DNA of 36,275 bases from a virus: positions 1 through 36,275 of the IMG/VR virus record IMGVR_UViG_3300033571_006685. One strand, given 5' to 3'. Under the pieces are notes generated by a model that had not been told where the DNA came from, searched no databases, and saw only the letters and a program-made list of their open reading frames with translations. The position numbers were made by a program, and so were the translations under genes. Positions 2,206 to 12,719 of this stretch are shown piece by piece. Position 1 is the stretch's first letter. Each line of letters opens with the position of its first letter.

Positions 2206-2298
2206 TAAAAAACCCTTTCAGTAGAGGAGTAAGCTTTCGCCTACCACGCTCCTGAAAAGGTTCGTTAGAACGTTCTCTACTGGTTACTATGAAGTAAC
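2206..2298 (-). ncRNA. small RNA A, two-state terminator RNA (paralogue of 9949-10037)
   Basis: About 93 nt on the minus strand with its own consensus promoter. In transcript order: 5' hairpin GTTACT-TCAT-AGTAAC (2298-2283) at the predicted +1; 5' arm CAGTAGAG (2282-2275); hairpin GTTC-TAAC-GAAC; CCTTTTCA (2260-2253); hairpin GTAGGC-GAAA-GCTTAC (2244-2229); 3' arm CTCTACTG (2226-2219); TGAAAGG (2220-2214); T6 (2212-2207). Either the outer stem CAGTAGAG/CTCTACTG forms, or the terminator stem CCTTTTCA/TGAAAGG forms; both use the same 3' bases. The RNA at 9949-10037 has the same layout with a different but still complementary outer stem. No gene follows on this strand, so it looks free-standing. 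Confidence 0.7.
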
Positions 2299-2304
2299 GT
2301 GTAT

Positions 2305-2334
2305 ATTATATTATATTCAATATGTGATTGTCAA
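2305..2334 (-). promoter_or_regulatory. consensus sigma70-type promoter of small RNA A
   Basis: On the minus strand TTGACA (2334-2329), 18-base spacer, TATAAT (2310-2305). Predicted +1 is 2298, the first base of the 5' hairpin. A second overlapping TATAAT at 2315-2310 has a too-short spacer. It has the same -35, spacer length and -10 as the promoter of the paralogous RNA at 9913-9942. Confidence 0.75.
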
Positions 2335-2372
2335 ATATGTGCATAACTCTATTTTATCTACCTGTAATCTGA

Positions 2373-2378
2373 TATAAT
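2373..2378 (+). promoter_or_regulatory. extended -10 promoter upstream of transglycosylase
   Basis: TGATATAAT extended -10. Predicted start about 2385, giving a ~95-nt leader before the TTG at 2481. Confidence 0.5.
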
Positions 2379-2385
2379 TACATCT

Positions 2386-2480
2386 ATGAACGCTTCTCTT
2401 TAAGGTAAACCGTACACAAGATGTATAACTGGTGTCACCAGTAGAAATATATATGCTTAGCAGAGTCTCCTATATAAAGT
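2386..2480 (+). promoter_or_regulatory. structured leader of the transglycosylase gene with a 5-codon ORF
   Basis: The leader begins with a minimal ORF (ATG 2386 to TAA 2403, MNASL) placed seven bases after a -10 box. It continues with hairpin TACA/TGTA around 2413-2426 and a strong hairpin ACTGG-TGTCA-CCAGT around 2428-2442, then an AT-rich stretch before TTG 2481. There is no Shine-Dalgarno site. A regulatory role of the mini-ORF is inference. Confidence 0.35.
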
Positions 2481-2927
2481 TTGAAATACTTAATAACAAT
2501 AATATCAATATTAGTAGCTCTACAAATATTACTAATAAACCAAGAACTTAATAAGATAAACAATCTTAATACGTTCATACCTGTAGAGTTTACGCCTTTA
2601 GATAAGACTAAAAAAGTCATCAAAGGAGATGTAGCAAAGATGATAGCAATGAAAGCTATCGAGAATGATTTAAACCCTAAATACTTAGTGGCACTTGCAA
2701 AATGCGAGAGTTCATTAAATCCAAATATTCAATCAAAGTTTATGCAGTCTTATGGTAGAGAACAAAGTTTTGGACTTTTTCAAATCCACTTAAAAGCTCA
2801 TAAAGATGTAACAGTTAAACAAGCCTTAGACCCTGTATTCAACACACAGTGGGCTATACAAAAAATCAAAGAGGGTAAAGCTCCTAGATACTGGGTACAT
2901 TGTCATAAAATAGCAAAAAATGTATAA
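2481..2927 (+). CDS. membrane-anchored lytic transglycosylase (SLT-like)
   Basis: 148 aa. Start is TTG 2481: an in-frame TAA sits two codons upstream and the N-terminus is needed for the hydrophobic signal/anchor at residues about 2-20. The soluble part has goose-lysozyme/SLT features: catalytic Glu76 in ALAKCESSLNP and SFGLFQIH at about 96-103, the usual G-x-x-Q-I motif. It would cleave glycan strands of peptidoglycan from the outer face of the membrane, in host lysis or wall passage. At 148 aa it is a minimal SLT domain. It is transcribed from its own promoter through a structured leader. Confidence 0.75.
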   Translation: MKYLITIISILVALQILLINQELNKINNLNTFIPVEFTPLDKTKKVIKGDVAKMIAMKAIENDLNPKYLVALAKCESSLNPNIQSKFMQSYGREQSFGLFQIHLKAHKDVTVKQALDPVFNTQWAIQKIKEGKAPRYWVHCHKIAKNV

Positions 2928-2933
2928 TGTATC

Positions 2934-2966
2934 TGAGGGTTTCTCACAAGTTTCCCTCACATATTT
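2934..2966 (+). terminator. probable terminator after transglycosylase gene
   Basis: TGAGGG (2934-2939) pairs with CCCTCA (2954-2959), followed shortly by ATTTTT. It lies just after the TAA at 2925-2927. A TATAAT overlaps the stop (2923-2928), but no gene begins behind it. Confidence 0.5.
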
Positions 2967-2979
2967 TTCATGTTCACAG

Positions 2980-3005
2980 ACACCTTTCGCCCGAAGGTGT
3001 TTTTG
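2980..3005 (+). terminator. intrinsic terminator
   Basis: ACACCTT (2980-2986) and AAGGTGT (2994-3000) form a 7-bp stem with an inner CG pair and a short loop, followed by TTTTG. It ends three bases before the -10 box of the next transcript, insulating it from upstream transcription. Confidence 0.65.
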
Positions 3006-3007
3006 TG

Positions 3008-3013
3008 TATAAT
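3008..3013 (+). promoter_or_regulatory. -10 box for tRNA-like RNA / metallopeptidase transcript
   Basis: TATAAT directly behind the terminator. Predicted start about 3019-3020. No good -35 (hexamer at 2985-2990 is poor). Confidence 0.5.
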
Positions 3014-3018
3014 TAAAG

Positions 3019-3132
3019 GAGAATCAACTGGCGATAATCTAACAGTTGTGGATAGTACCTTTTGAGTATAGTCACTAGTGCTTCAACTGTAGGCTCTAGA
3101 GGACATCATGGTGCAATTCCATATATACTCAC
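3019..3132 (+). ncRNA. tRNA-like structured RNA leading into the 3133 gene
   Basis: No ORF. GAGTATA (3064-3070) pairs perfectly with TATACTC (3124-3130) like an acceptor stem, preceded by a T-arm-like segment ATGG-TGCAATT-CCAT with a 7-nt loop that differs from TTCAANN at one base. A single A follows (3131), like a discriminator base, then C and the ATG at 3133. The middle lacks a D-loop GG and a normal anticodon arm, and the unit is about 68 nt, shorter than tRNA. Upstream CAACTG (3025-3030) and a repeat CAACTG (3084-3089) both compete for CAGTTG (3043-3048). It may be a degenerate tRNA, a Y-RNA-type tRNA mimic, or a leader. Confidence 0.45.
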
Positions 3133-3549
3133 ATGAAGAAAAAAATTAAAAAAGTTTGGCATCAACAAAAAGCATTTGCTTTTGATGTTGCACCATTTGA
3201 AACAGATTTAGTTGTTTTTATAAACCCAACAGAGGAGTTTATGAAAAAATCATTAAAAGATATGATGGGTAAAGGTTATGCTAATTTTGATGAAAGAGAA
3301 ATAGGAGAATGGGATAGTAGTAAAACAGACAAAGGCAGATTGATAAAAGTTGCTGGAGGTTTTGCAATTCTAGTAAAAGCAAATAAAAACCAGTTTAGAG
3401 AATTTGTCGGAGTTTTAACACATGAAATAGTCCATGCAGTACAATACATTTTAAGACAAAGAAGAATCGGATTAAGTGAAGAAACAGAGGAGGTACATGC
3501 TTACCTTACAGAAAATCTACTTGTTAGAATCTTAAAAGAACTTTACTAA
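3133..3549 (+). CDS. putative zinc metallopeptidase (HExxH)
   Basis: 138 aa. GVLTHEIVHAVQY contains HEIVH at about 97-101, the zinc-binding and catalytic motif of metallopeptidases, followed by Glu-rich EETEEVHAY about 117-123 that could give the third ligand. Size and layout recall small phage metalloprotease-like proteins; the substrate is unknown. The ATG lies two bases after the 3' end of a tRNA-like element, with no Shine-Dalgarno site, so the mRNA could be leaderless if that element is cleaved off. It could also be a non-catalytic SprT-like fold. Confidence 0.55.
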   Translation: MKKKIKKVWHQQKAFAFDVAPFETDLVVFINPTEEFMKKSLKDMMGKGYANFDEREIGEWDSSKTDKGRLIKVAGGFAILVKANKNQFREFVGVLTHEIVHAVQYILRQRRIGLSEETEEVHAYLTENLLVRILKELY

Positions 3550-3550
3550 T

Positions 3551-3658
3551 ATGACACTAGAACAAAAAATACAAAAAGCTATCAAGATAACTTTAAAACA
3601 ATTTAAAAAGACTTTTAAGGATTTAGCTTTAATTGATAAAAATGAAAAACTACGATAA
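3551..3658 (+). CDS. small hypothetical protein, 35 aa
   Basis: ATG 3551, TAA 3656-3658 (MTLEQKIQKAIKITLK...). Basic amphipathic helix, no known domain. One base after the metallopeptidase stop, and its 3' end overlaps the next gene by 17 bases in another frame. Confidence 0.45.
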   Translation: MTLEQKIQKAIKITLKQFKKTFKDLALIDKNEKLR

Positions 3659-3845
3659 CCAAGAGGAGGAACATAAGGCTATCAATGAAGATTACGTTGT
3701 AGACCAATTCTACGACCTAGCAGATGACGATATAGAAATGTCACCAGCCGAGCAGTGGTCATTGTTTACTGTTGGTATAATCATGACACTTGTAGTTGCT
3801 GTGGTTGTTAGACTTTCTTTATGGATAGTTGATTTTCTGATATAA
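3642..3845 (+). CDS. small membrane protein, acidic N-terminus
   Basis: 67 aa from ATG 3642; a TTG three codons upstream is possible but less likely. Residues about 1-38 are strongly acidic (EEEHKAINEDYV, DLADDDIE), followed by one long hydrophobic segment about 44-65 (VGIIMTLVVAVVV...). A single-pass protein with an acidic cytoplasmic or external tail. Function not recognised; position between host-wall genes and small accessory genes. Confidence 0.55.
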   Translation: MKNYDNQEEEHKAINEDYVVDQFYDLADDDIEMSPAEQWSLFTVGIIMTLVVAVVVRLSLWIVDFLI

Positions 3846-3846
3846 T
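3841..3846 (+). promoter_or_regulatory. -10 box for near-leaderless gene at 3855
   Basis: TGATATAAT (extended -10) overlapping the stop of the preceding gene; eight bases to the ATG at 3855. Confidence 0.5.
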
Positions 3847-3854
3847 AAATAAAC

Positions 3855-4004
3855 ATGAATATCTTTACAACTTACAAACAACCAATACACCCAAAAACAG
3901 GTAAACCAGAACACGCAGAGTTGGTATATTTTAATAATGAGCTTGTCTATAATTTCCGTGATAATACTATTGTAAAGTTTAGTGAAGCACAATACGAATC
4001 ATGA
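3855..4004 (+). CDS. small hypothetical protein, 49 aa
   Basis: ATG 3855 to TGA 4002-4004 (MNIFTTYKQPIHPKTGKPE...). Soluble, mixed composition, no recognised domain. It starts eight bases after an extended -10 box with no Shine-Dalgarno site. Its stop codon overlaps the TGATATAAT of the next promoter. Confidence 0.5.
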   Translation: MNIFTTYKQPIHPKTGKPEHAELVYFNNELVYNFRDNTIVKFSEAQYES

Positions 4005-4010
4005 TATAAT
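4005..4010 (+). promoter_or_regulatory. extended -10 promoter for the 4052 gene
   Basis: TGATATAAT; predicted start about 4017, giving a ~35-nt leader that contains the one strong Shine-Dalgarno site in the window. Confidence 0.5.
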
Positions 4011-4040
4011 AAACTTGCATAGTTCTTTCACAGCTAACAA

Positions 4041-4046
4041 AGGAGG
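4041..4046 (+). promoter_or_regulatory. Shine-Dalgarno site deciding a TTG start
   Basis: AAAGGAGG with five bases to TTG 4052. Almost no other gene in the window has such a site. Confidence 0.7.
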
Positions 4047-4051
4047 TTACA

Positions 4052-4309
4052 TTGAAAAAGATTAAAGTCAAAAGGACAAATCGCCATCACCGTCGTAGTC
4101 GTGCTAGGGGCGGGGATAACTCACCTCAAAACATCTCTATCGTCAATGAAAAGCAACATCAGAGTTTTCATAACGTATTCAGCTCAACTGAACCTCAAGC
4201 TATTTGCGATGATTTAAATAACATCTGGGGAGACCCTGCTGTACATTTCTTCTTCGTAAGAAAAGAAACCCTCAAAGAAGTCCAAAAACTAATCAAACAA
4301 CTGACATGA
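4052..4309 (+). CDS. HNH-like His/Arg-rich small protein of Patescibacteria type
   Basis: 85 aa starting at TTG 4052, chosen because of the strong AGGAGG five bases upstream. Residues about 8-20 (RTNRHHRRSRARGG) then NISIVNEKQHQSFHNVF and INxIWGDP-like ending resemble a small family I associate with Patescibacteria genomes, with HNH-like spacing (HH, N, H) but without Cys pairs. Nuclease activity is not shown. The end overlaps the next gene as ATGA. It is a possible host-derived gene, and the SD site sets it apart from its neighbours. Confidence 0.5.
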   Translation: MKKIKVKRTNRHHRRSRARGGDNSPQNISIVNEKQHQSFHNVFSSTEPQAICDDLNNIWGDPAVHFFFVRKETLKEVQKLIKQLT

Positions 4310-4515
4310 GCCTACTAGCCTTATTCAGAAGACAGCGTACGGAATGTCCTACTTGCGGGTATGACATTGCACCTCATCACAAGAGAGTTGTGAATGGCAC
4401 GAACATATTTTGTAGCCATGATTGTGAGGAAGAATACCTTGAAGACCACGTGATAGTCGTACCTCAAGAGCTTTCTTTGGAGTATCCAAACCAACAGCTA
4501 GAACTTCGGTTATAG
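4306..4515 (+). CDS. small zinc-ribbon protein
   Basis: 69 aa; ATG overlaps the previous stop (ATGA). CPTCGYD near the N-terminus and FCSHDCEEEY about residues 35-42 give a C-x2-C...C-x3-C zinc site of TRASH/MYM type. Such proteins bind nucleic acid or metal; the partner is unknown. Last gene of the rightward cluster before the terminator at 4521. Confidence 0.55.
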   Translation: MSLLALFRRQRTECPTCGYDIAPHHKRVVNGTNIFCSHDCEEEYLEDHVIVVPQELSLEYPNQQLELRL

Positions 4516-4520
4516 CAAAA

Positions 4521-4552
4521 AGCCCCTAATCCATTGGAAAGGGGGCTAATTT
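4521..4552. terminator. bidirectional terminator between converging operons
   Basis: AGCCCC...GGGGCT-type stem: AGCCCCT (4521-4527) with AGGGGGCT (4540-4547). On the minus strand it is followed by TTTTTGC, a good terminator for the leftward operon; on the plus strand by AATTTAT, weaker. It lies between the converging 4306 and 4607 genes. Confidence 0.7.
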
Positions 4553-4606
4553 ATCACCTGTAGAATGCCACCAGAGGGCTAAAACGGGCAAATGCGAGTA
4601 GTTTTG

Positions 4607-4741
4607 CTATCTAAGGGTAATCTTATGCGTTTTTAAATAATATCTCACTAACTGAGGGCTTATACCAAGTGTCTTTGCTATCTCACAAGCTCTCATTCTA
4701 GGAAGTTTTGCCAGCCTTTTTATTTCTTGTAGTCTATTCAT
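4607..4741 (-). CDS. small helix-turn-helix protein, 44 aa
   Basis: Minus-strand ATG 4741 to TAG 4609-4607. The protein is almost only an HTH unit: IKRLAKLPRMRACEIAKTLG then ISPQLVRYYLKTH. ACEIAKTLGISPQLVRYYL fits a helix-turn-helix DNA-binding motif. Its start overlaps the end of the NinG-like gene by eight bases, so it ends the leftward operon. It may regulate phage promoters; it is too small for a full repressor unless it dimerises. Confidence 0.6.
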   Translation of the reverse strand: MNRLQEIKRLAKLPRMRACEIAKTLGISPQLVRYYLKTHKITLR

Positions 4742-5171
4742 TTTTATTTTTATAATATTCTATTTTTTCTAAGTAATCTTGCTCTGTCCACTTTGATATT
4801 TTACCTTTAAGGGAGTACAGGTAGTCCACTTTTTCTTTTCCGAGTTTCATTCCGTATTCATACAAGTTACCTCCAAGATTTATATTACAATGGTAACAGC
4901 AACCTTTGACGTTGTCTTCATGAAAGTAAAGTTCAATACCTCCGACTGATTTTGGAATAAAATGTCCTGCATGGTACGCACTACCTTCTGCACGTCTACC
5001 ACAAATAAAGCAAATGTTTTTATCTCTAGCTCTTATGTATTTACTGAACTCTATCCATAACTTTTTTTTAAGTTTTGATATAGAAGTTTTACCAACCTTG
5101 TTGAGCTTAGATACTTTCTTTGGTTTATTTACTTTATTAGGACTTACTCTCCTTAGAGGTGTGCGTTTCAT
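4734..5171 (-). CDS. ninG: NinG/Rap-like HNH recombination protein
   Basis: 145 aa from ATG 5171. A start at 5216 would add 15 residues, but it lies inside a hairpin and upstream of a good -10 box. The basic N-terminus (KPKKVSKLNKVGK) is followed by C54-x2-C57, AGHFIP (68-73), N87, CCYHCN (91-96) and GGNLYEYG, the signature of phage NinG/Rap (PF05766). Lambda Rap nicks branched recombination intermediates, so this is probably a structure-specific nuclease working with the Rad52-type annealase of the same operon. The length is somewhat below lambda NinG. Confidence 0.75.
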   Translation of the reverse strand: MKRTPLRRVSPNKVNKPKKVSKLNKVGKTSISKLKKKLWIEFSKYIRARDKNICFICGRRAEGSAYHAGHFIPKSVGGIELYFHEDNVKGCCYHCNINLGGNLYEYGMKLGKEKVDYLYSLKGKISKWTEQDYLEKIEYYKNKNE

Positions 5172-5178
5172 TGGTAAT

Positions 5179-5187
5179 AGTATACCA
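5179..5187 (-). promoter_or_regulatory. extended -10 promoter of the NinG-like gene
   Basis: Minus-strand TGGTATACT (5187-5179); seven bases to the ATG at 5171, so the mRNA would be leaderless. Confidence 0.5.
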
Positions 5188-5194
5188 CATATAT

Positions 5195-5218
5195 GAAAAT
5201 ATGCCTTTTCAGGCATAT
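5195..5218 (-). terminator. perfect hairpin with GAAA loop and T tract
   Basis: ATATGCCT (5218-5211), GAAA loop, AGGCATAT (5206-5199), then TTTTC on the minus strand. It ends the transcript from the DUF2828 gene, or the RNA at 5199-5280, just before the NinG promoter. Confidence 0.6.
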
Positions 5219-5280
5219 CTAGACTCTATCTTGTTTTCTCCAAAAGAAAAGGATTTTGTTTGCTGTGAGAGTCTATTAAG
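5199..5280 (-). ncRNA. candidate structured RNA downstream of DUF2828 gene
   Basis: On the minus strand AGACTCT (5273-5267) pairs with AGAGTCT (5227-5221), enclosing hairpin TTTTCT-TTTGG-AGAAAA, and is followed at once by the GAAA terminator hairpin. No own promoter is clear, so it may be the 3' UTR of the upstream gene. Its position next to a Ro-like gene recalls bacterial ro/Y-RNA loci, but no conserved Y-RNA sequence was recognised. Confidence 0.35.
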
Positions 5281-5369
5281 TATTGAGATAACTAGACACA
5301 TCTTTTTTCAATTAGAAGTTGAATGATTGTGAGTTGCTGTTCGTGTCTATCAATACCTATATCATATAC

Positions 5370-6785
5370 CTATGCAAGAATATTGCAATACCTGTCGCTG
5401 TGGATAACTTCATTCATTAGTTCTATGGGTGATTTATTTTCTACTGCCAACTTGAATGTTGTTGTACTTAATCCTGAAACAAGTGTTACACCTCTTTTAT
5501 TTTTAGTAACTGGAACTTGTTTATTTCTTGCGTTTACATTCCAAAATACAATGTTTGGTATTTTGTATTCTGTACCACTAAATAACTGCTCAATGGCTTC
5601 GTGATTGGTTCCTGTAACACAACTGTCAAATTCCATATCAGAGATAATATAAATTGTTTCTGGTAATTCATTTGAGGGAGTGTTGTTTTGTACTGCTGTA
5701 TTAACAAGTGTTGCAAATACTTTATACAAGTTTGTATTTCCATCCCAATCAGCTCTTTCAAGGTTATACATTTTTTCTCGTATATCTTTACCTTGTATCT
5801 TTTGCAACTTTGGATTTTCACTAAAGGTTATAAAGTAATCTTTAAATTGACCTTTGTTTCTTTCGGCAAAATAAAGTGCAAGTGATACTGATACTGCCAT
5901 TGGGTCGCCACCCATAGAGCCTGATACATCTGCAACTACAAGTGCGTTTTTTCCATTTGTATAGTCTGGTAAATTATTCCACATAGCATCTAGTGCTTTC
6001 ACATCTCCACCACTTTGAACTGCTTTATACACTTGGTATGTATAAAGAGTTTTAGTGTTTATTTTTTCTTTACCACTGGCTACATCTTCTAAGTATTTTG
6101 AGTACCTTTCTTCATCGTGTTTTTTAAATGCTTTCTTATATTTAAAGTTTGCTTGTGATGGTAACTTTCCATACTCAATGGTTTTGTATTCTTTATTAGT
6201 TAGATTGTGTTCAACTAACTTAATTTTAGTTCTTAGACTAGATAGCATTTTTCTATATCCTCTTTCTGTCATACCTAGCGACATTCTAATTCTTTTTGCA
6301 AGTAGTTTAGTTTTATTAGATGAGGTGTTTTCACTTGGCAACCATTTCCCTAAGAGTGTAGGCGTATCACTTTCTTTGTCTTTCTCTAGTTGATTCTTAA
6401 TTACACTGACAACAACATCTTTAGACTTTGTATCTATGAGTTTTATCAGGTCGTCAAATCTTCCGTATTCTGGTATTAAATTTGCAATCTTTGAAAACTC
6501 ATCTTGATACTCATCTGCCACTATTCTAATACAAGTGTTAAATACATCTCTTTCACCTTGACCACCTCTTACATCTCTAAGATAGAAAAGTATTCTTATT
6601 GCACCTATTCTATCTTGTGCCATAGCTTTTCTAAAAAGGTCTACTGCTAAAAATAGATTGTTTCTTGTAGCCCCACCTAGTGCAAAAAGGTCTAATAAAT
6701 TATCTGTTGTAGATATATAGGTTTCTGCACCATTTTCTGTTGTTGTTTTGTTCATTGTTTTTTCTAAGTTGTTTATGAAGTTCAT
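5370..6785 (-). CDS. DUF2828 protein with vWA domain, Ro60/TROVE-like
   Basis: 471 aa. The N-terminal helical half has DLFALGGATRNN (33-43) and FYLRDVRGGQGERDVF (67-82), the conserved motif of DUF2828. The C-terminal half is a von Willebrand A domain with MIDAS residues DVSGS (D286, S288, S290), T351 and D383 (ISDMEFD); PNIVFWN and LVSG further match DUF2828. The family combines an alpha-helical repeat region with vWA, the layout of Ro60/TROVE proteins that bind Y RNAs and misfolded RNA; this relation is an inference from architecture. It lies between NinB-like and NinG-like genes in the leftward operon. No Shine-Dalgarno site; the ATG at 6753 (MNKTTTENG) is an alternative start. Confidence 0.8.
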   Translation of the reverse strand: MNFINNLEKTMNKTTTENGAETYISTTDNLLDLFALGGATRNNLFLAVDLFRKAMAQDRIGAIRILFYLRDVRGGQGERDVFNTCIRIVADEYQDEFSKIANLIPEYGRFDDLIKLIDTKSKDVVVSVIKNQLEKDKESDTPTLLGKWLPSENTSSNKTKLLAKRIRMSLGMTERGYRKMLSSLRTKIKLVEHNLTNKEYKTIEYGKLPSQANFKYKKAFKKHDEERYSKYLEDVASGKEKINTKTLYTYQVYKAVQSGGDVKALDAMWNNLPDYTNGKNALVVADVSGSMGGDPMAVSVSLALYFAERNKGQFKDYFITFSENPKLQKIQGKDIREKMYNLERADWDGNTNLYKVFATLVNTAVQNNTPSNELPETIYIISDMEFDSCVTGTNHEAIEQLFSGTEYKIPNIVFWNVNARNKQVPVTKNKRGVTLVSGLSTTTFKLAVENKSPIELMNEVIHSDRYCNILA

Positions 6786-6795
6786 TGTTTTATTG

Positions 6796-7206
6796 TTAAA
6801 TCATATAATCCGTATAATTTTGTATCTCCTCTGCTGTTGGTAATGCAATTCCAGTTTCCGAGCTTATCTTATCGAGATATTCACCGAACTCCACTTTAGT
6901 TAATTCAGTTGTGCTTTTAGGTATCTTAATTTCTTTACCCATGACAGTTATAAACACAGGTGGTAGTAACGTACGCTTGAAGTATTCATGGAGGTCTTGA
7001 TAATTATTTCCTGTACTTTCCTCAATCATTCTAAGATAGGCAAAGTAAAATCTGCATTGGCTTAGACTTCTTACAGGCACTATCCTTTTTATCTGATATA
7101 CCTTGCCTATATTTTCCTTTAAGTCTTCTTTGAATAAAGACTTTTGAGTTTCAGATTGGAAGTCCAAGCCTGTGCCATTCGATTTTGCTGTGAATATCTT
7201 TGACAT
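6796..7206 (-). CDS. NinB-like phage recombination accessory protein
   Basis: 136 aa. RSLSQCRFYFAYLRMIEESTG (about 46-66), DLHEYFKRTLLPP and a C-terminal FGEYLDKISSETGIALPTAEE match a widespread phage family close to NinB: helical, with a conserved R-S-x-x-Q-x-R motif and DLHEYFK. Lambda NinB is a recombination mediator that binds single-stranded DNA and RecF-pathway partners. The neighbours (Rad52-type, SSB-like, NinG-like) support this role. Exact family membership needs a profile search. Confidence 0.5.
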   Translation of the reverse strand: MSKIFTAKSNGTGLDFQSETQKSLFKEDLKENIGKVYQIKRIVPVRSLSQCRFYFAYLRMIEESTGNNYQDLHEYFKRTLLPPVFITVMGKEIKIPKSTTELTKVEFGEYLDKISSETGIALPTAEEIQNYTDYMI

Positions 7207-7410
7207 TTATTTTACAAGTGTGTATTCGAATATTTTAGTTTTTACACCTTTCTTTACCAGAAAATCCCCCTCTATCTTCATTCCCTGCTCTCTAAGTTTA
7301 AGAATGATGTGTGATAAACGCCAGATGCCAAGTTTCATAATCGCATCAAAGTTGTTTACCTTTCCTTTTGTTTCTAAGATGTGTTTGATTGTTTGTAGTT
7401 GTGATTTCAT
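7207..7410 (-). CDS. small winged-helix DNA-binding protein
   Basis: 67 aa: MKSQLQTIKHILETKGKV then AIMKLGIWRLSHIILKLREQGMKIEG and a beta-wing-like VKKGVKTKIFEYTLV. The I-x-R-L-S...L-R-x-x-G pattern is typical of small phage winged-helix proteins found with annealases. Overlaps the next ATG at TAAATG spacing. A regulator or DNA-handling factor; partner unknown. Confidence 0.6.
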   Translation of the reverse strand: MKSQLQTIKHILETKGKVNNFDAIMKLGIWRLSHIILKLREQGMKIEGDFLVKKGVKTKIFEYTLVK

Positions 7411-7467
7411 GTTGTTTACCCACGCTTACGCATTAGCTGGTGGGTGGTTATATGGCTTATAATAAGG
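7411..7467 (-). promoter_or_regulatory. hairpin in the intergenic leader of the winged-helix gene
   Basis: CCCAC and GTGGG (around 7428-7453) form a stem with inner GCT/AGC pairs, 11 bases before the ATG at 7410. It could cap mRNA processing or affect initiation. No promoter is evident. Confidence 0.3.
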
Positions 7468-7800
7468 CTAGAAAGGTATCGAGCTTAAATCAATACTATT
7501 TCCATCTTCATCAGGGCTAGTAAAGTTGTCCATAGGGTCTTCTGTCGGTGCAAGTTTCTCTCTGATTTGCTCTTTTACTTCCTCAACATCTTTCTTTCTT
7601 TCAAAGGTATCAAGTTCTCCATAAAGACTGCCAGTTTTACCCTCTTTGATTTGGATATTTACCCAGCCATTCTTAGCGTGGTCTGTTAGAAACTTTTTAA
7701 ACTCGTCTACTTTGAAAGACACATTCGCTTTAATAAAGCTAGGTGCGTTTTGATGCGGTGCTTTGATAATCATTCCCTCCGTAAATACTTTGTCTGCCAT
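7468..7800 (-). CDS. single-stranded DNA-binding-like protein
   Basis: 110 aa. A short beta-rich core (about 10-60) is followed by a charged linker (RKKDVEEVKEQIREK) and an acidic tail ending SIDLSSIPF. Bacterial SSB proteins end in an acidic tip with I-P-F that recruits partner enzymes, and this tip has the same last three residues. The OB fold itself is not obvious by eye. It sits directly behind the Rad52-type annealase (stop and start overlap), a classic pairing for phage single-strand annealing. Weaker alternative: unrelated acidic protein. Confidence 0.45.
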   Translation of the reverse strand: MADKVFTEGMIIKAPHQNAPSFIKANVSFKVDEFKKFLTDHAKNGWVNIQIKEGKTGSLYGELDTFERKKDVEEVKEQIREKLAPTEDPMDNFTSPDEDGNSIDLSSIPF

Positions 7801-8258
7801 TATTTTATTTCGTTAATATATGCTGTTAAATCGTAAACTCTCTTGCCTTGCTTATCTACTACATACGGAAAGTTACTAGTTGTCTTAGCTTCGTTGGCTG
7901 GTACATATTGAATATCAAGGTCATAAAGAAATCTACCTATACCCCATTTTACACCAGCTCTTTTGAAAGCATCAGAAGCCTGACCTTTCTCTTTCTCAAC
8001 TGCCGACTCACTTCCTGTATCCCATTTCCATACCCATTCATTGTCTACTTTGATACCTATACCTGCAAACATTTGCCCTCCAATGTCTTTGTAGTCGTCT
8101 TGCCAGTTCCCTATGCCTATAACATCGTCAAGGTGTCTTTGTACATCTCTTGAGTCTATGTACGCTACACATTGAGCCAATGGTTTATTCTTTGAAAATG
8201 ACTGTACTCTCCATTTGTAAGGTATAACCTTTGTAAGTTCTTTTAGTTTAGTTTCCAT
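7800..8258 (-). CDS. Rad52/Rad22-type single-strand annealing protein
   Basis: 152 aa. IPYKWRVQSFSKNKPLAQCVAYIDSRDVQRHLDDVIG, then W-x-D-Y...G and GSESAVEKEKGQASDAFKRAGVKWGIGRFLYDL match the DNA-binding core of the Rad52/22/DdrA family, including the K-G-x-x-S-D-A-x-K-R-A-x-x-x-x-G-I-G-R-x-L-Y signature. It should anneal complementary single strands for recombination-dependent replication. The length equals the annealing core without the C-terminal part. It is followed by an SSB-like gene and, further on, NinB- and NinG-like genes. Confidence 0.85.
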   Translation of the reverse strand: METKLKELTKVIPYKWRVQSFSKNKPLAQCVAYIDSRDVQRHLDDVIGIGNWQDDYKDIGGQMFAGIGIKVDNEWVWKWDTGSESAVEKEKGQASDAFKRAGVKWGIGRFLYDLDIQYVPANEAKTTSNFPYVVDKQGKRVYDLTAYINEIK

Positions 8259-8424
8259 TGTCGTAATTGTTAAAGTCTACATCTATGCCAAAGTCTTCTA
8301 ATACCTTGGCGTTTCTTTCGCTTTTACTTCTGATAAACCTAAGAAGATATGATTTTATAATATCCCTTGCGTTGTTTACCGAGCTTGACGGATAGTGTCT
8401 TAGAATTAAGTTGATTGTGTTCAT
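8248..8424 (-). CDS. small hypothetical protein, 58 aa
   Basis: ATG 8424, TAA 8250-8248 (MNTINLILRHYPSSSVNNARDI...). Overlaps both neighbours in the leftward operon by a few bases (TAATG before it, the Rad52-type start inside its last codons). Mostly helical with a basic middle (RSKSERNAK). No domain recognised. The overlaps at both ends support it as real. Confidence 0.6.
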   Translation of the reverse strand: MNTINLILRHYPSSSVNNARDIIKSYLLRFIRSKSERNAKVLEDFGIDVDFNNYDNGN

Positions 8425-8639
8425 TATTTTGTGTTTAAATCATATTCTAAACTCTCTGATGTTTCGTTCCATTCCTCGACCTCTATCAATGTATCAGGGT
8501 CAAAGTCTAGTGGATTTTCAGACCAGATGTTGAATAGTGACTCTGCTGGTAATCCGTCTTCATTTTCCATTTTAGGAAGTACATTTTCCATGAAGTATAT
8601 TTTTACTTCCTGTGTGTCTTTAAACTTTAGAAGTTCCAT
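8424..8639 (-). CDS. small acidic hypothetical protein
   Basis: 71 aa, strongly acidic (NEDGLPAESLF, DFDPDTLIEVEEWNE). Its first codons overlap the end of the 8794 gene by 13 bases, its stop overlaps the next ATG. Acidity and operon position would fit a DNA-mimic or protein-inhibitor role, but nothing in the sequence proves it. Confidence 0.55.
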   Translation of the reverse strand: MELLKFKDTQEVKIYFMENVLPKMENEDGLPAESLFNIWSENPLDFDPDTLIEVEEWNETSESLEYDLNTK

Positions 8640-8794
8640 GGTAGTAATATTGCGTTAGCTATTGTTGCGAATAATAATGCTAGTGAAGCTAGTGTAACCC
8701 CTGCTACTGCTAGATTGACTTCGTTTCTTTTAAACCAACTTTCTTTTTTGAAGTGAGAGTAAATCTCCATGTCGTCTATAATTTGTTTTTTCAT
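8627..8794 (-). CDS. small single-pass membrane protein, 55 aa
   Basis: ATG 8794 to TAA 8629-8627. About 25 charged residues (MKKQIIDDMEIYSHFKKE...) then one hydrophobic helix (VNLAVAGVTLASLALLFATIANAILLPW). Its start is the first after the long structured leader 8804-8970, so that leader controls it directly. Function unknown; a membrane protein first in a transcript of recombination genes is unusual. Confidence 0.65.
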   Translation of the reverse strand: MKKQIIDDMEIYSHFKKESWFKRNEVNLAVAGVTLASLALLFATIANAILLPWNF

Positions 8795-8803
8795 GTTATT
8801 TGT

Positions 8804-8970
8804 TACAGATACTTTTAAAACTCCATAAGGAGTAGTGAGAACATAAATGGCTGTCTTTCGGATTTTGCCTTAACCGTTCCGAGAGTAGTATCTGTACAGG
8901 AGTTCCTCTGTGTTGGTGTTTATGTCCTCGCTACCTCTTACGAGATAGTTAAATTGTCAAATAACCTTAC
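8804..8970 (-). promoter_or_regulatory. riboswitch-like structured leader, candidate switch
   Basis: Minus-strand leader between a promoter and the ATG at 8794. In order: hairpin CTATCTC-GTAA-GAGGTAG (8948-8931); stem arm GAGGACATAAA (8929-8919), which pairs with TTTATGTTCTC (8847-8837) over 11 bp with one wobble; inside it AGTATCTGTA read as TACAGATACT on this strand (8896-8887) and hairpin TCGGA/TCCGA (8882-8878/8862-8858); then terminator-like hairpin CTCC-TTAT-GGAG (8832-8821) with TTTT; then AGTATCTGTA (8813-8804), which pairs with 8896-8887 over 10 bp. The two long stems cross, so they form a pseudoknot or exclude each other. No known riboswitch class was recognised. Confidence 0.5.
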
Positions 8971-9005
8971 TCTTATATACTACTCTTTTCTTTTACTTTT
9001 GTAAA
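8964..9005 (-). promoter_or_regulatory. leftward promoter sharing its start region with 13045
   Basis: Minus-strand TTTACA (9005-9000), 17-base spacer, TAGTAT (8982-8977). The bases from the end of the -10 on, TATAAGAGTAAGGT (8977-8964), are identical to those at the rightward promoter at 13073-13086. The sharing of 14 bases suggests a common regulator or antitermination-type signal. Confidence 0.5.
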
Positions 9006-9036
9006 GTCTATATCAAGTGGCAACCTGTGGAAAAGT

Positions 9037-9312
9037 CTAATCCATGCTTATTTTTTTGCGTGTATTGAATATTGTAGTCATTCCCACCGACTCTTTAATG
9101 ATAATAAGTTCTTTTTGCATTTGTATTACTTCGTATTCAAGCATTAGATTTTCTTTCATAGAGTCAAGTCGTCTTTTTTCTTTGAGGAGATAATTAGTCA
9201 ATCTTTGATTTTCTTTTTCTAGTATATCAAAACATTCATTTGAACAAGTCATCTTTTGTCTTTTTTCTAAAAGTTTATCGCATACTATGCAATTTGTATT
9301 TTGGCGTTCCAT
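9037..9312 (-). CDS. zinc-finger plus coiled-coil protein
   Basis: 91 aa. CIVCDKLLEKRQKMTCSNECF (about 8-28) gives a C-x2-C...C-x3-C zinc site, followed by a coiled coil about 30-75 (EKENQRLTNYLLKEKRRL...). The small zinc unit resembles those of phage or plasmid-type DNA-binding proteins. Its ATG overlaps the stop of another zinc protein (TAATG), the two perhaps arising by duplication of the zinc unit. Function unknown. Confidence 0.55.
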   Translation of the reverse strand: MERQNTNCIVCDKLLEKRQKMTCSNECFDILEKENQRLTNYLLKEKRRLDSMKENLMLEYEVIQMQKELIIIKESVGMTTIFNTRKKISMD

Positions 9313-9455
9313 TATTTTATATTTTTTAATTTCTTAGTTGGTCTACATTTTTCTTTACAATATTTTTTACCTCTTTGGGAGATATTTATATCAAATGGTT
9401 TCTTACAAGTTACACAGATAATACTTGCAATGACTTTAGTGTAGGTTTTGTGCAT
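9312..9455 (-). CDS. small zinc-ribbon protein, first gene of leftward operon
   Basis: 47 aa from ATG 9455; ATG 9461 would add two residues. The start at 9455 is preferred because it lies exactly six bases after the -10 box at 9467-9462, like other genes here. CVTCKKPFD and YCKEKCRP give C-x2-C...C-x3-C. The basic tail (PTKKLKNIK) suggests nucleic-acid binding. Located next to the putative DnaA-box origin region, it may be an early regulator; this is inference. Confidence 0.6.
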   Translation of the reverse strand: MHKTYTKVIASIICVTCKKPFDINISQRGKKYCKEKCRPTKKLKNIK

Positions 9456-9461
9456 AAACAT

Positions 9462-9467
9462 ATTTTA
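9462..9467 (-). promoter_or_regulatory. -10 box of leftward operon (leaderless)
   Basis: Minus-strand TAAAAT, six bases from ATG 9455. No clear -35. A hairpin (9481-9506) lies just upstream. Confidence 0.45.
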
Positions 9468-9479
9468 CACCAAATAAAA

Positions 9480-9607
9480 AACTATGGACTTTTTTATCCA
9501 CAGTTTTGTTTCTATATAGCGAACTGCACGAACAATAGTCTGCTGGGTTCTTGTACTTATTAAGACGAGTCAAAGTCTAAAATGTTACAAAAATAAAGTG
9601 TGGATAA
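9480..9607. other. candidate replication/control region with two DnaA boxes
   Basis: TTATCCACA at 9494-9502 and TGTGGATAA at 9599-9607 are perfect DnaA-box sequences in opposite orientation, in an AT-rich gap between the divergent operons. Hairpin AACTATGGA/TCCACAGTT (9480-9506) overlaps the first box. Three more perfect boxes occur at 5399-5407, 13028-13036 and 13573-13581. Origin function is inferred. Confidence 0.45.
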
Positions 9608-9633
9608 AGTAAATTGCAATTAAATATTTTTGG

Positions 9634-9639
9634 TATACT
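9634..9639 (+). promoter_or_regulatory. extended -10 promoter of the 9646 gene (leaderless)
   Basis: TGGTATACT with six bases to ATG 9646. Confidence 0.55.
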
Positions 9640-9645
9640 TATAAC

Positions 9646-9963
9646 ATGGAAATAGCACTACTTTTAAAAGAAATATCTATCGCTGATGTCAGACCGAAGA
9701 TACGAAATGAAAGACAATATGTTATATCACTATTTGTAGAACGCTTAAACAATGAAAGGGGAAATCTAAAACCTTTGAGTCCAACTTTTATAGCTTTTAA
9801 AATGTCGCATTTGAAGATACCAGATTTATACTTCTTTTTAAAGACTTGTGAGCAAGGAGATAGCTTTTCTAAAGTTTGGTGGGGAGCTTTAAAGACTGTG
9901 GATAGAAAGCCCTTGACATATAGGAAACGAAAAAGCTATAATAGATATGCTAGTGAAAACTAG
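9646..9963 (+). CDS. hypothetical protein, 105 aa, first rightward gene
   Basis: Basic protein (RPKIRNERQY, RKPLTYRKRKSYNRY at the end) with a mixed helical middle (SPTFIAFKMSHLKIPDLYFFLKTCEQ). No known domain by eye; the basic ends suggest nucleic-acid binding. Leaderless start six bases after TATACT. Its last 17 codons contain the full promoter of small RNA B (9913-9942), so the 3' end has a double function. The gene directly faces the DnaA boxes. Confidence 0.6.
   Translation: MEIALLLKEISIADVRPKIRNERQYVISLFVERLNNERGNLKPLSPTFIAFKMSHLKIPDLYFFLKTCEQGDSFSKVWWGALKTVDRKPLTYRKRKSYNRYASEN
9913..9942 (+). promoter_or_regulatory. consensus sigma70-type promoter of small RNA B
   Basis: TTGACA (9913-9918), 18 bases, TATAAT (9937-9942), embedded in the 9646 coding sequence. 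Predicted +1 is 9949, the base before the 5' hairpin. Confidence 0.75.
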
Positions 9964-10037
9964 ACACAGGATAATCTCCAAGAACCTTTTCATGGAGTTC
10001 TCAGCGAAAGCTGGGAGTCCTGTGAAAGGGTTTTTTT
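9949..10037 (+). ncRNA. small RNA B, two-state terminator RNA (paralogue of 2206-2298)
   Basis: About 89 nt. 5' hairpin CTAGT-GAAA-ACTAG (9950-9963) at the predicted +1; outer arm CACAGGA (9965-9971); CTCC paired with GGAG (9976-9979/9994-9997); CCTTTTCA (9985-9992); hairpin CTCAGC-GAAA-GCTGGG (10000-10015); TCCTGTG (10018-10024), which pairs with CACAGGA; TGAAAGG (10023-10029), which pairs with CCTTTTCA; T7 (10031-10037). The outer stem and terminator stem exclude each other. Shared with small RNA A: GAACCTTTTCA, GCGAAAGC, TGAAAGGGTTTTTT; the outer stems differ in sequence but keep pairing. Its last part is a strong terminator in either reading. Confidence 0.7.
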
Positions 10038-10152
10038 ATTAAAATCTTTTCACTAAAGTCTAACAGAATCCGATACAGGATAGCCTAGGGACTTAAAACA
10101 ACTAGGTCGCAAGTATACACAATACGGAATACCAAACGGGGATAAAGTTATT

Positions 10153-10185
10153 GTGCGAAACTTAAAATACGCACTCGTTCTTTTT
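10153..10185 (+). terminator. probable intrinsic terminator
   Basis: GTGCG/CGCAC stem with 12-nt loop, followed by TCGTTCTTTTT. Shares three bases with the CACAATA/TATTGTG stem just upstream, which could act as antiterminator. Confidence 0.5.
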
Positions 10186-10323
10186 AAAACTCAATAGTCA
10201 CTATCTTATATCTCAAATAGATACTCTCTATCAAGGTAAACAAGATACTTTTCAAGGGAAGTTATCTAGGAAAATATCCAAGAATATAACTTTATCTTTG
10301 AAGGGAAACGGCTTGAGGTGGTT

Positions 10324-10332
10324 TGGTATAGT
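10324..10332 (+). promoter_or_regulatory. extended -10 promoter of the IbrB-like gene
   Basis: TGGTATAGT; predicted start about 10339, leader about 28 nt without a Shine-Dalgarno site. Confidence 0.5.
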
Positions 10333-10366
10333 ATATACAATGTAATTACAAATATAAAATAACAAA

Positions 10367-11494
10367 ATGAGCGAAATTAAAAAAATCAAAGAAATTATTG
10401 ATAAAATAGAAAGTTATGAATTAGACGATAAAGTCACTTTCATAAATGCGGTTAGACAAATGTTGCATAAAATATCTCCATTTGCCAATGAGCCTGTAGA
10501 CTGTGTTTTATGGGTTAAATCAGATACAGTTGTAGCCAATGATTACAACCCTAACAAAGTAGCACCTCCAGAAATGCAACTACTTGAAGTGAGTATCGAT
10601 AATGACGGATATACTCAACCAATTGTAACTTATAATGTTGACGGTAAAAATGAAGTAATTGACGGATTTCACAGAAGTAGAGTTGGTAAAGAGTCACCTT
10701 TGATAAATAAACGAGTACACAACTATTTGCCTGTGGTAGTCATCAGAGATGAGCAAACAGATAAAAACAATCGTATTGCATCAACAATCCGACACAACAG
10801 AGCTAGAGGAAAGCACCAAGTTGACGCTATGTCTGAAATTGTACTTGAACTTAAAAACAGAAACTGGACTAATAAAAGAGTTGCTAGAGAGTTGGGAATG
10901 GACGAAGATGAAATATTAAGACTGTGTCAGATTTCTGGACTATCTGATATGTTTTCAGATGCAGACTTTAACAAAGCGTGGGAAGCTGGTGACAGTATTC
11001 ATGGATTTGAACCACTTACAGATGAAATTGAAGATGATGAAGACTATGGTAGAACTGTAAACACATCAGATCAAGATAGGATATTCCATACTTATGATAA
11101 ATGGGAATGTGCTAAAGCTGGATTTTATGCAAGTACAAAAGACGGAATGACAGCAGAACAGTGTCAAAATGTATTTGCTGATTTACTAAGAAATGAAGAC
11201 GAGTTCAAAAATGCACTAGAAAGAGTTATCACAGAATGGAAAAATTCATGTGAGCATTATTTGACTAACAAAGCTATGAATAGAATAGCGTGGCTCGGAC
11301 AGGCTTCTGTGTGTATTGCTAAAGGTATACCGAGTACATATTCATCTGGTTGGAACTTACTAACTATTGACGAACAAGAAAAAGCAAATGACATCGCATT
11401 TGAGTATCTAAACAAATGGCTAGTAAAAAACAATAGACCAGAGATAACAATGGAGGAAGCATTATCAACAGGTAGACAAGTAGAAATATACTAA
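10367..11494 (+). CDS. ibrB: ParB/Srx-fold protein, IbrB-like
   Basis: 375 aa. The N-terminal third carries the ParB/sulfiredoxin fold: LLEVSIDNDGYTQPIV (72-87) and EVIDGFHRSRVGK (96-108), with the G-x-H-R-x-R nucleotide/phosphate motif, followed by an HTH-like stretch about 150-195 (TNKRVARELGMDEDEILRLCQISG). A helical C-terminal part follows. With the PAPS-reductase-type gene one base downstream it forms the pair known as IbrB-IbrA in E. coli, reported as regulators of immunoglobulin-binding genes; the biochemical role is unclear. ParB-type N-domains in this setting may bind CTP/ATP or DNA. Here it may act in regulation, DNA modification or anti-defence (inference). Confidence 0.75.
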   Translation: MSEIKKIKEIIDKIESYELDDKVTFINAVRQMLHKISPFANEPVDCVLWVKSDTVVANDYNPNKVAPPEMQLLEVSIDNDGYTQPIVTYNVDGKNEVIDGFHRSRVGKESPLINKRVHNYLPVVVIRDEQTDKNNRIASTIRHNRARGKHQVDAMSEIVLELKNRNWTNKRVARELGMDEDEILRLCQISGLSDMFSDADFNKAWEAGDSIHGFEPLTDEIEDDEDYGRTVNTSDQDRIFHTYDKWECAKAGFYASTKDGMTAEQCQNVFADLLRNEDEFKNALERVITEWKNSCEHYLTNKAMNRIAWLGQASVCIAKGIPSTYSSGWNLLTIDEQEKANDIAFEYLNKWLVKNNRPEITMEEALSTGRQVEIY

Positions 11495-11495
11495 T

Positions 11496-12719
11496 ATGGC
11501 AACAAAGATATATCAACAGTACAACGTATTAACAGGTGCTAAGGATAGGATAGTTAAAACATTTGATTTGTTTGAAAAGATATATGTTTCTTTCTCTGGC
11601 GGTAAAGATAGTACGACAATGCTCCACTTAGTAATGGAAGAAGCTATAAAGAGAAATAGAAAAGTCGGTGTATTGATTATAGACCTTGAAGCTCAATACA
11701 AACAAACTATTGAACACATGGACGAAATAGTAGAAATGTACAAAGACCACATAGATTTGCATTGGTTCTGTGGAGAGTTGCTATTGAGAAACGCTGTTAC
11801 TAACTATGAGCCACGCTGGATATGCTGGGACGAAGATAAAAAAGATATATGGGTTAGAGAAAAACCTAAACAGGCTTCTGATTTATCTCAATATGATTTC
11901 TATGTGCCAAAAATGGAGTTTGAGGAACTTATGGTTATCTTTGGTCAATGGTATTCAGAGCATGGAAAATATAGGACAGCTGGAATGATTGGTATTAGAG
12001 CAGATGAAAGTTTGCACAGATATAGGGCTATTGTTTCTCAAAAGAAAGGTTTAACTATAAATGGTTACAAGTGGACTACCAAAATATCTAAAAACCTTTT
12101 CAATGTCTATCCGATTTATGATTGGAAAACAGAAGATATATGGGTTTACTATGGAAAGTTTAGCAATAAACCTCACAATGCGATTTACGATAGAATGACA
12201 CAAGCTGGTGTTAAATTATCAGACCAAAGACTATGCCAACCTTTTGGAGATGACCAAAGGCGTGGACTATGGTTGTATCACATACTTGAGCCAGATACTT
12301 GGACTAAGTTAATCAATCGTGTAAATGGAGTTAATTCAGGTGCATTGTATATTGAGGAAAATGGAAACATGACAGGATATAATCACATTACAAAACCAGC
12401 AGGGCATACATGGCAGACTTTTTGTAACTTGTTACTTTCAACATTACCAGAAAAGACATCTAAACATTACCAATATAGATTTAAAAAGTTTATAAAAGGT
12501 TGGCAAGATAGAGGGTATACAAAAATACCAGATGAAGCACCACATGAACTAGAGGTAAAATGCTGGGCTCCATCATGGCGTAGAATGTGTAGAGTTATTC
12601 TTAGAAACGATTATTGGTGTAAGGGTCTTGGTCAAACTCAACCTAAAAGTGAAGCCTATGAAAAGTTCAAACAAATTAAATCACTTAGAGTTAAAAAAGA
12701 AAAGCTCAATCAAGATTAG
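11496..12719 (+). CDS. ibrA: PAPS reductase-family protein (DUF3440), IbrA-like
   Basis: 407 aa. VSFSGGKDSTTMLH (31-44) is a PP-loop ATP pyrophosphatase motif (SGGKDST at 34-40). The rest follows the DUF3440/IbrA layout: VLIIDLEAQY, RWICWDED, GMIGIRADES, CQPFGDDQRRGLWLYH and a C-terminal PHELEVKCWAPSWRRM domain with CRVILRNDYWCKGL. The PP-loop would activate a substrate by adenylation; true PAPS reduction is not implied. Related families include DndC, which works in phosphorothioate DNA modification, so sulfur or nucleotide chemistry on DNA or a cofactor is possible. It starts one base after the IbrB-like stop (co-translation). No obvious partner enzyme for sulfur transfer is in the window. 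Confidence 0.8.
   Translation: MATKIYQQYNVLTGAKDRIVKTFDLFEKIYVSFSGGKDSTTMLHLVMEEAIKRNRKVGVLIIDLEAQYKQTIEHMDEIVEMYKDHIDLHWFCGELLLRNAVTNYEPRWICWDEDKKDIWVREKPKQASDLSQYDFYVPKMEFEELMVIFGQWYSEHGKYRTAGMIGIRADESLHRYRAIVSQKKGLTINGYKWTTKISKNLFNVYPIYDWKTEDIWVYYGKFSNKPHNAIYDRMTQAGVKLSDQRLCQPFGDDQRRGLWLYHILEPDTWTKLINRVNGVNSGALYIEENGNMTGYNHITKPAGHTWQTFCNLLLSTLPEKTSKHYQYRFKKFIKGWQDRGYTKIPDEAPHELEVKCWAPSWRRMCRVILRNDYWCKGLGQTQPKSEAYEKFKQIKSLRVKKEKLNQD

Follow-up and report, generated by a model that had tools for sequence, protein, structure and literature searches.

Predicted small RNAs with two competing folds form an uncatalogued family in viruses and mobile DNA

Comparison of two paralogous elements in the virus record IMGVR_UViG_3300033571_006685 (36,275 nucleotides (nt), analysed in full and referred to below as the window) with eight relatives found elsewhere indicates that they belong to a real, uncatalogued small-RNA family, with well-supported competing folds, of viruses and mobile DNA that are linked to bacteria with very small genomes, probably Patescibacteria. 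Comparing the ten sequences established a fixed promoter geometry, a 5′-terminal hairpin (P0), an outer stem (P1), an inner hairpin (P2) and a terminator helix which competes with these stems. We see about an even chance that the element is a self-contained RNA of phages and mobile elements (∼90–110 nt) which acts in trans, its conserved loop being a seed or binding site that is hidden or exposed by refolding. Far more tentatively, these RNAs may constitute an undescribed class shared by phages and mobile DNA of Patescibacteria, the mobile DNA carrying defence genes; they would then be free-standing bistable RNAs whose terminator is built from their own exposed loop.

The two RNAs of the window, copy 1 on the minus and copy 2 on the plus strand (Table 1), had been proposed by a reading made from the letters alone (henceforth the sequence-only reading), and both are present where it placed them. 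The blocks GAACCTTTTCA and TGAAAGGGTTTTTT each have exactly two zero-mismatch occurrences in the window, as does a perfect TTGACA-N16..19-TATAAT promoter, found once before each RNA with the 18-base spacer already noted; shuffled sequences lead one to expect 0.06 such promoters. A further block, GCGAAAGC, is likewise common to both copies and turned out not to be conserved across the family. The copies are diverged paralogues (72% identity); since they are no closer to each other than are copies of different phages, the duplication was not recent. The P1 strands pair in both (Table 1). As had also been noticed, copy 1 has no sense gene downstream, and the 5′ end of copy 2 lies inside the 3′ end of an open reading frame (ORF). 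The stop codon of this ORF falls within P0 of copy 2.

Members were sought with the pattern AACCTTTTCN{18,48}GAAAGGNTTTT over IMG/VR, and in one further scan over the GTDB species genomes. The scans yielded eight members in addition to the window copies, six on viral contigs (L001 (G001), L002 (G002), L134 (G003), L142 (G004), L144 (G005) and L151 (G006)) and two at genome loci (L191 (G007) and L194 (G008)); the remaining pattern matches do not exhibit the RNA architecture. Identity among the ten members is 60–78%, and their predicted length ∼90–110 nt. The loci in G007 and G008 are mobile-looking regions of 0.6–1.0 megabase (Mb) genomes; the phylum of these two hosts, whose sampled genomes span 0.4–2.0 Mb, is probably Patescibacteria. 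Bearers are rare in it: one of 380 genomes by pattern, and one of 297 and one of 384 by covariance model (not counting a rejected match), the bearer in each scan being one already known; the model filters applied over many genomes were stricter and may have missed members. The covariance model, whose structure comprises P0 and P1 only, gives all ten at least 44.8 bits, a score which attests consistency rather than independent discovery because the ten are its training sequences. The best matches outside the ten loci reached 31.4 and 27.4 bits, and the former, in G386, was rejected as a member, its tail not being intact and its sequence coding-like. In agreement with the earlier statement that no known family has this layout, Rfam 15 holds no match at curated thresholds for the RNAs scanned. 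Permissive Rfam scans of the copy 2 region and four relatives returned only chance-level matches for these RNAs, the best of them, at 22.5 bits and E 0.94, being to the PyrR site, whose threshold is 54, and blastn against known phage and plasmid records gave chance matches only.

The search was anchored on the loop and tail blocks, and promoter, P0 and P1 lie outside the pattern. In all ten members a −10 box, with at least five of six matches to TATAAT at −12 to −7, ends exactly six bases before P0, where +1 is defined as the first base of P0; the background rate of such boxes is 0.012 per site. Members with a poor −35 element mostly have TGn ahead of the −10 box. The most straightforward interpretation is that transcription of the RNA begins exactly at the P0 base; in the window this places +1 at position 2298 of the minus and 9949 of the plus strand, with which the hairpin opens, in line with the sequence-only reading. 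At the other end, the terminator helix, formed by AACCUUUUC and GAAAGGGUU, and a U-tract are present in 10/10, both within the search pattern. Each RNA would hence be transcribed from its own promoter, with +1 at its 5′ end, and would terminate at the U-tract that follows the terminator hairpin, as expected of a stand-alone small RNA; the earlier description as free-standing is supported. A leaderless peptide starting at an ATG near +1 was considered and rejected, early stops being found in most members when the sequences were read by eye.

Statistics for P0 and P1 were obtained with a hand-trimmed ungapped alignment (A3), in which 99.1% of cells are standard pairs compared with 72.3 ± 3.0% in shuffles, and 27 cells compared with 7.1 ± 2.1 hold two-sided changes, affecting 10 of 11 pairs; these figures are to be read with the trimming in mind, which favours P0 and P1 because it was done with both in view. 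When the partners are slid, pairing is at most 45.5%. The outer-stem covariation first noted between two copies is thus seen in ten sequences, and further homologues with compensating changes, proposed as a check, do exist. Nested in P1, P2 holds AACCUUUUC in its loop in all ten members, where 1–2 unpaired bases follow it and 2–11 precede it. Its pairing is significant with the 5′ strand shuffled (Fisher P ∼5e-9), and a strand swapped in from another member seldom equals the own one (mean rank 0.6 of 9, with 4.5 expected). Helix P3 varies in length and loop among the members.

The alternative hairpin is formed when the P2 loop, AACCUUUUC, pairs with GAAAGGGUU in the tail to give the terminator helix before the U-tract. 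The terminator is then prolonged by a helix between the P2 and P1 3′ strands (Fisher P ∼6e-8; swap rank 0.5 of 9, with 4.5 expected), so that both inner stems give up their 3′ strands to it. As in each of the two folds the strands of every member fit their own partners better than swapped ones, the RNA appears to be bistable. Consistent with this, the tail UG reads CG in G006, where A-to-G changes in both the P1 partner and the loop partner keep both pairings. Minimum free energy folding favours the terminator in nine of ten members by ∼1.6 to 13 kcal/mol and the P1/P2 fold in G008, whose P2 spans ∼16 base pairs; a stable pseudoknot in which the P2 loop pairs with the tail under a closed P1 is possible in compact members and would be hard to reach in G008. 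The two-state terminator of the sequence-only reading is hence supported in ten sequences, but not in the form originally given: the overlap between P1 and the core terminator helix is limited to the 3′ UG, and at a deeper level the two folds also compete over P2, which had not been named.

Taken together, these features suggest a mechanism in which the host sigma-70 RNA polymerase would start exactly at the P0 base, and P0 would cap the RNA and protect its 5′ end. As the transcript emerges, P2 would form first and show AACCUUUUC in its loop, followed by P3. Once the last ∼35 bases have emerged, two routes would be open: either P1 closes, the loop staying exposed and the U-tract unpaired, or the loop pairs with GAAAGGGUU, aided by pairing of the P2 and P1 3′ strands, and the resulting intrinsic terminator releases the RNA with its loop hidden. 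The loop would be the functional contact, be it an antisense seed or a protein site; the two folds would determine how many molecules have the seed exposed relative to those that have it hidden, and binding of the loop would favour the exposed fold. If the RNAs are indeed an undescribed class, the binding partner of the loop would govern folding as well as the stop of transcription, and the RNA would be a sensor or decoy independent of any gene downstream.

Several observations weigh against this proposal. The family is small (n = 10). In the shuffle test of the prolonged terminator, copy 1 does not exceed the shuffles (p 0.78). Complementarity of the loop to phage translation starts, assessed in six phages, was no better than that of permutations. 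The invariance of loop and tail is partly a matter of ascertainment because both blocks are in the search pattern; relaxed and Watson-Crick variants (AACCCTTTC/GAAAGGGTTTTT, AACCTTTTCA/TGAAAAGGTTTT and a version with both edges trimmed) added no members with the architecture, however, which suggests, short of proof, that the invariance is true and includes a conserved U-G wobble.

Riboswitch and attenuator platforms, including those of the PyrR type, use mutually exclusive antiterminator-like and terminator folds. Given that the RNA likewise has mutually exclusive folds, one of them a terminator, it might act in cis as a conditional terminator or antiterminator (an attenuator, riboswitch-like or resembling put of HK022) that heads a transcription unit, the P1/P2 fold permitting read-through; we regard this as possible but doubtful. 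A sense gene, ParB-like in two cases, is located 240–730 nt downstream of six of the ten copies, and the two opposite-strand copies of the window recall putL and putR of HK022 (PMC9378689). Yet those platforms stand upstream of the sense gene they control, while here a downstream gene is not consistently found: only six of ten copies have one within ∼700 nt, and copy 1, G004, G007 and G008 have none within 700 nt, which counts against attenuation as a role common to the family, even if some loci may still attenuate. Sequence conservation 3′ of the RNA does not extend beyond copy 2 and G003, the closest relative of copy 2, and the gene after copy 2 has its own promoter-like site (10313–10341). 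The case made earlier against simple attenuation thus gains from the four copies that lack such a gene, whereas a trans mode of action and what the loop does are themselves what we infer. The put sites encode antiterminator RNAs of ∼70 nt with two stem-loops which act in cis on elongating polymerase via the β′ zinc-binding domain (PMC9378689). The RNA described here shares with them that it is a short structured phage RNA present in two related copies per genome near strong promoters (PMC9378689); it differs in being a three-helix bistable domain whose 3′ end is a terminator made out of its own conserved loop, whereas put does not finish in a terminator of its own, and one of the window copies has nothing to read into.

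Binding of a protein by the RNA, as a decoy, scaffold or guide-like molecule, would account for an invariance of loop and tail which includes the U-G wobble and suggests sequence recognition beyond pairing. The partner could be the small helical protein encoded upstream, whose gene lies 6–35 nt upstream of the RNA, or overlaps it, in four phages, or else a protein of the host, for instance RNA polymerase. In the window the small helical protein has 105 amino acids (105-aa protein), with homologues immediately 5′ of the RNA in G003 (78% identity), G002 (38%) and G006 (36%); a search of IMG/VR with the protein alignment detected these three homologues only, all of them adjoining the RNA. The protein has no convincing match in Pfam, PHROG or NCBIfam, and its model, all-helical with a predicted local distance difference test (pLDDT) score of 71, has no fold match in the PDB. 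However, G001, G004, G005 and the inspected parts of G007 and G008 contain no homologue, the synteny may reflect merely common phage ancestry, and homologues occur on the chromosomes of two genomes of the G008 phylum (L261 (G122) and L262 (G211), at about position 1501) with no RNA nearby. We thus hold this explanation to be rather unlikely. An ordinary promoter-plus-terminator unit, serving as an insulator or as the terminator of the upstream gene with no function of the RNA itself, would explain the strong intrinsic terminator and the overlap of copy 2 with a gene’s 3′ end, but it requires neither the covariation of P0, P1 and P2 nor a promoter fixed within a base of P0, and is disfavoured as improbable.

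Y RNAs are small structured RNAs partnered with Ro60/TROVE proteins, and the window pairs a small structured RNA with a gene for a DUF2828 protein (5370–6785 (−)), which contains a VWA domain, is Ro60-like and belongs to a family called RNA-binding by PHROGs. The sequence-only reading had suggested a search for partners of this protein. Unlike Y RNAs and their proteins, the two do not co-occur across members: DUF2828 is found in none of the eight other RNA-bearing records, the RNA in none of 19 DUF2828 loci, and the protein has no sequence match to solved Ro60. A Y-RNA-like partnership was hence not supported on testing, and we rate it as exceedingly improbable. The protein (DUF2828/DUF7788) has a VWA-like domain, belongs to phrog_850, annotated as RNA-binding, and has no sequence relative of known structure.

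Little is known, to our knowledge, of RNA-based regulation in Patescibacteria phages, and we know of no sequence or architecture match to phage small regulatory RNAs of the DicF, IsrK or SprY type. An open-access literature search yielded no description of a small RNA of this kind in these phages. DicF, IsrK and SprY are encoded by phages or prophages, some have intrinsic terminators, and they act by pairing or sponging (PMC12197685); such RNAs come from well-studied hosts, and in the consulted passages a bistable layout is not described for them (PMC12197685). It is unusual that two competing structures are kept in a stand-alone RNA and not in a messenger RNA leader. The family is now defined and searchable, with a testable fold, and the RNA can be studied from cloned DNA without culture of the host.

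Table 1. Positions in the window of the two RNAs, their predicted promoters and parts, and the reading frame upstream of copy 2.
Feature	Position	Strand	Remarks
Promoter of copy 1	2305..2334	−	−35 TTGACA 2334-2329, 18-base spacer, −10 TATAAT 2310-2305
RNA copy 1, ∼93 nt	2206..2298	−	Predicted +1 at 2298; U-tract 2212-2207; 73.6 bits, covariance model
Copy 1 P0	2283..2298	−	5′-terminal hairpin GTTAC-TTCATA-GTAAC
Copy 1 P1, 5′ strand	2275..2282	−	CAGTAGAG
Copy 1 P1, 3′ strand	2219..2226	−	CTCTACTG
Copy 1 P2 hairpin	2246..2273	−	2273-2267 pairs with 2252-2246; displays conserved loop
Copy 1 conserved loop L	2253..2262	−	AACCUUUUCA; doubles as terminator 5′ strand
Copy 1 P3 hairpin	2228..2245	−	GAAA tetraloop; not kept family-wide
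Copy 1 conserved 3′ tail T	2207..2218	−	AAAGGGUUUUUU; terminator 3′ strand and U-tract
Promoter of copy 2	9913..9942	+	−35 TTGACA, 18-base spacer, −10 TATAAT
RNA copy 2, ∼89 nt	9949..10037	+	Predicted +1 at 9949; 76.2 bits, covariance model
Copy 2 P0	9950..9963	+	5′-terminal hairpin CTAG-TGAAAA-CTAG
Copy 2 P1, 5′ strand	9965..9971	+	CACAGGA
Copy 2 P1, 3′ strand	10018..10024	+	TCCTGTG
Copy 2 P2 hairpin	9976..9997	+	CTCCA/TGGAG; displays conserved loop
Copy 2 conserved loop L	9983..9992	+	AACCUUUUCA
Copy 2 P3 hairpin	9999..10016	+	GAAA tetraloop
Copy 2 conserved 3′ tail T	10025..10036	+	AAAGGGUUUUUU
105-aa ORF	9646..9963	+	Predicted all-helical; 3′ end contains promoter of copy 2

In G004 the RNA resides between portal-like and terminase genes, and in G008 near a large serine recombinase gene. 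The RNA of G007 is found on a 6.6-kilobase contig together with Shedu (SduA) and type I restriction-modification specificity genes, in a setting resembling a defence island (L255, 298–3894). The chromosomal homologue of the 105-aa protein in G122 and G211 sits between genes which read as mreB and def/fmt when inspected by eye, and is an uncharacterised host gene that seems to occur in phages too.

Copy 2 is followed at 10367–12719 (+) by a ParB-like gene and then a PAPS-reductase/DUF3440 gene, an IbrB/IbrA-like pair that also follows the RNA in G003 with 86–90% identity. The noncoding 330–550 nt between the RNA and the ParB gene (10038–10366 (+) in the window) share blocks with G003 (L134, L249), for example GTATAC.CAATACGGAATAC; a conserved second RNA downstream was considered here and rejected for the family as a whole, the sequence being common only to this closest relative. 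On the minus strand of L134, a tRNA-like T-arm, GCAAGTTCGACTCTTGC, located ∼150–360 nt past the RNA, is flanked by ATACTGTGT and ACACAGTAT, which are ∼200 nt apart and could pair as an acceptor stem; ARAGORN reports no tRNA or tmRNA there. Finally, GGAATACCAAA from the noncoding stretch between copy 2 and the ParB gene recurs after copy 1, at ∼2163–2153; the stretch is possibly another structured RNA.

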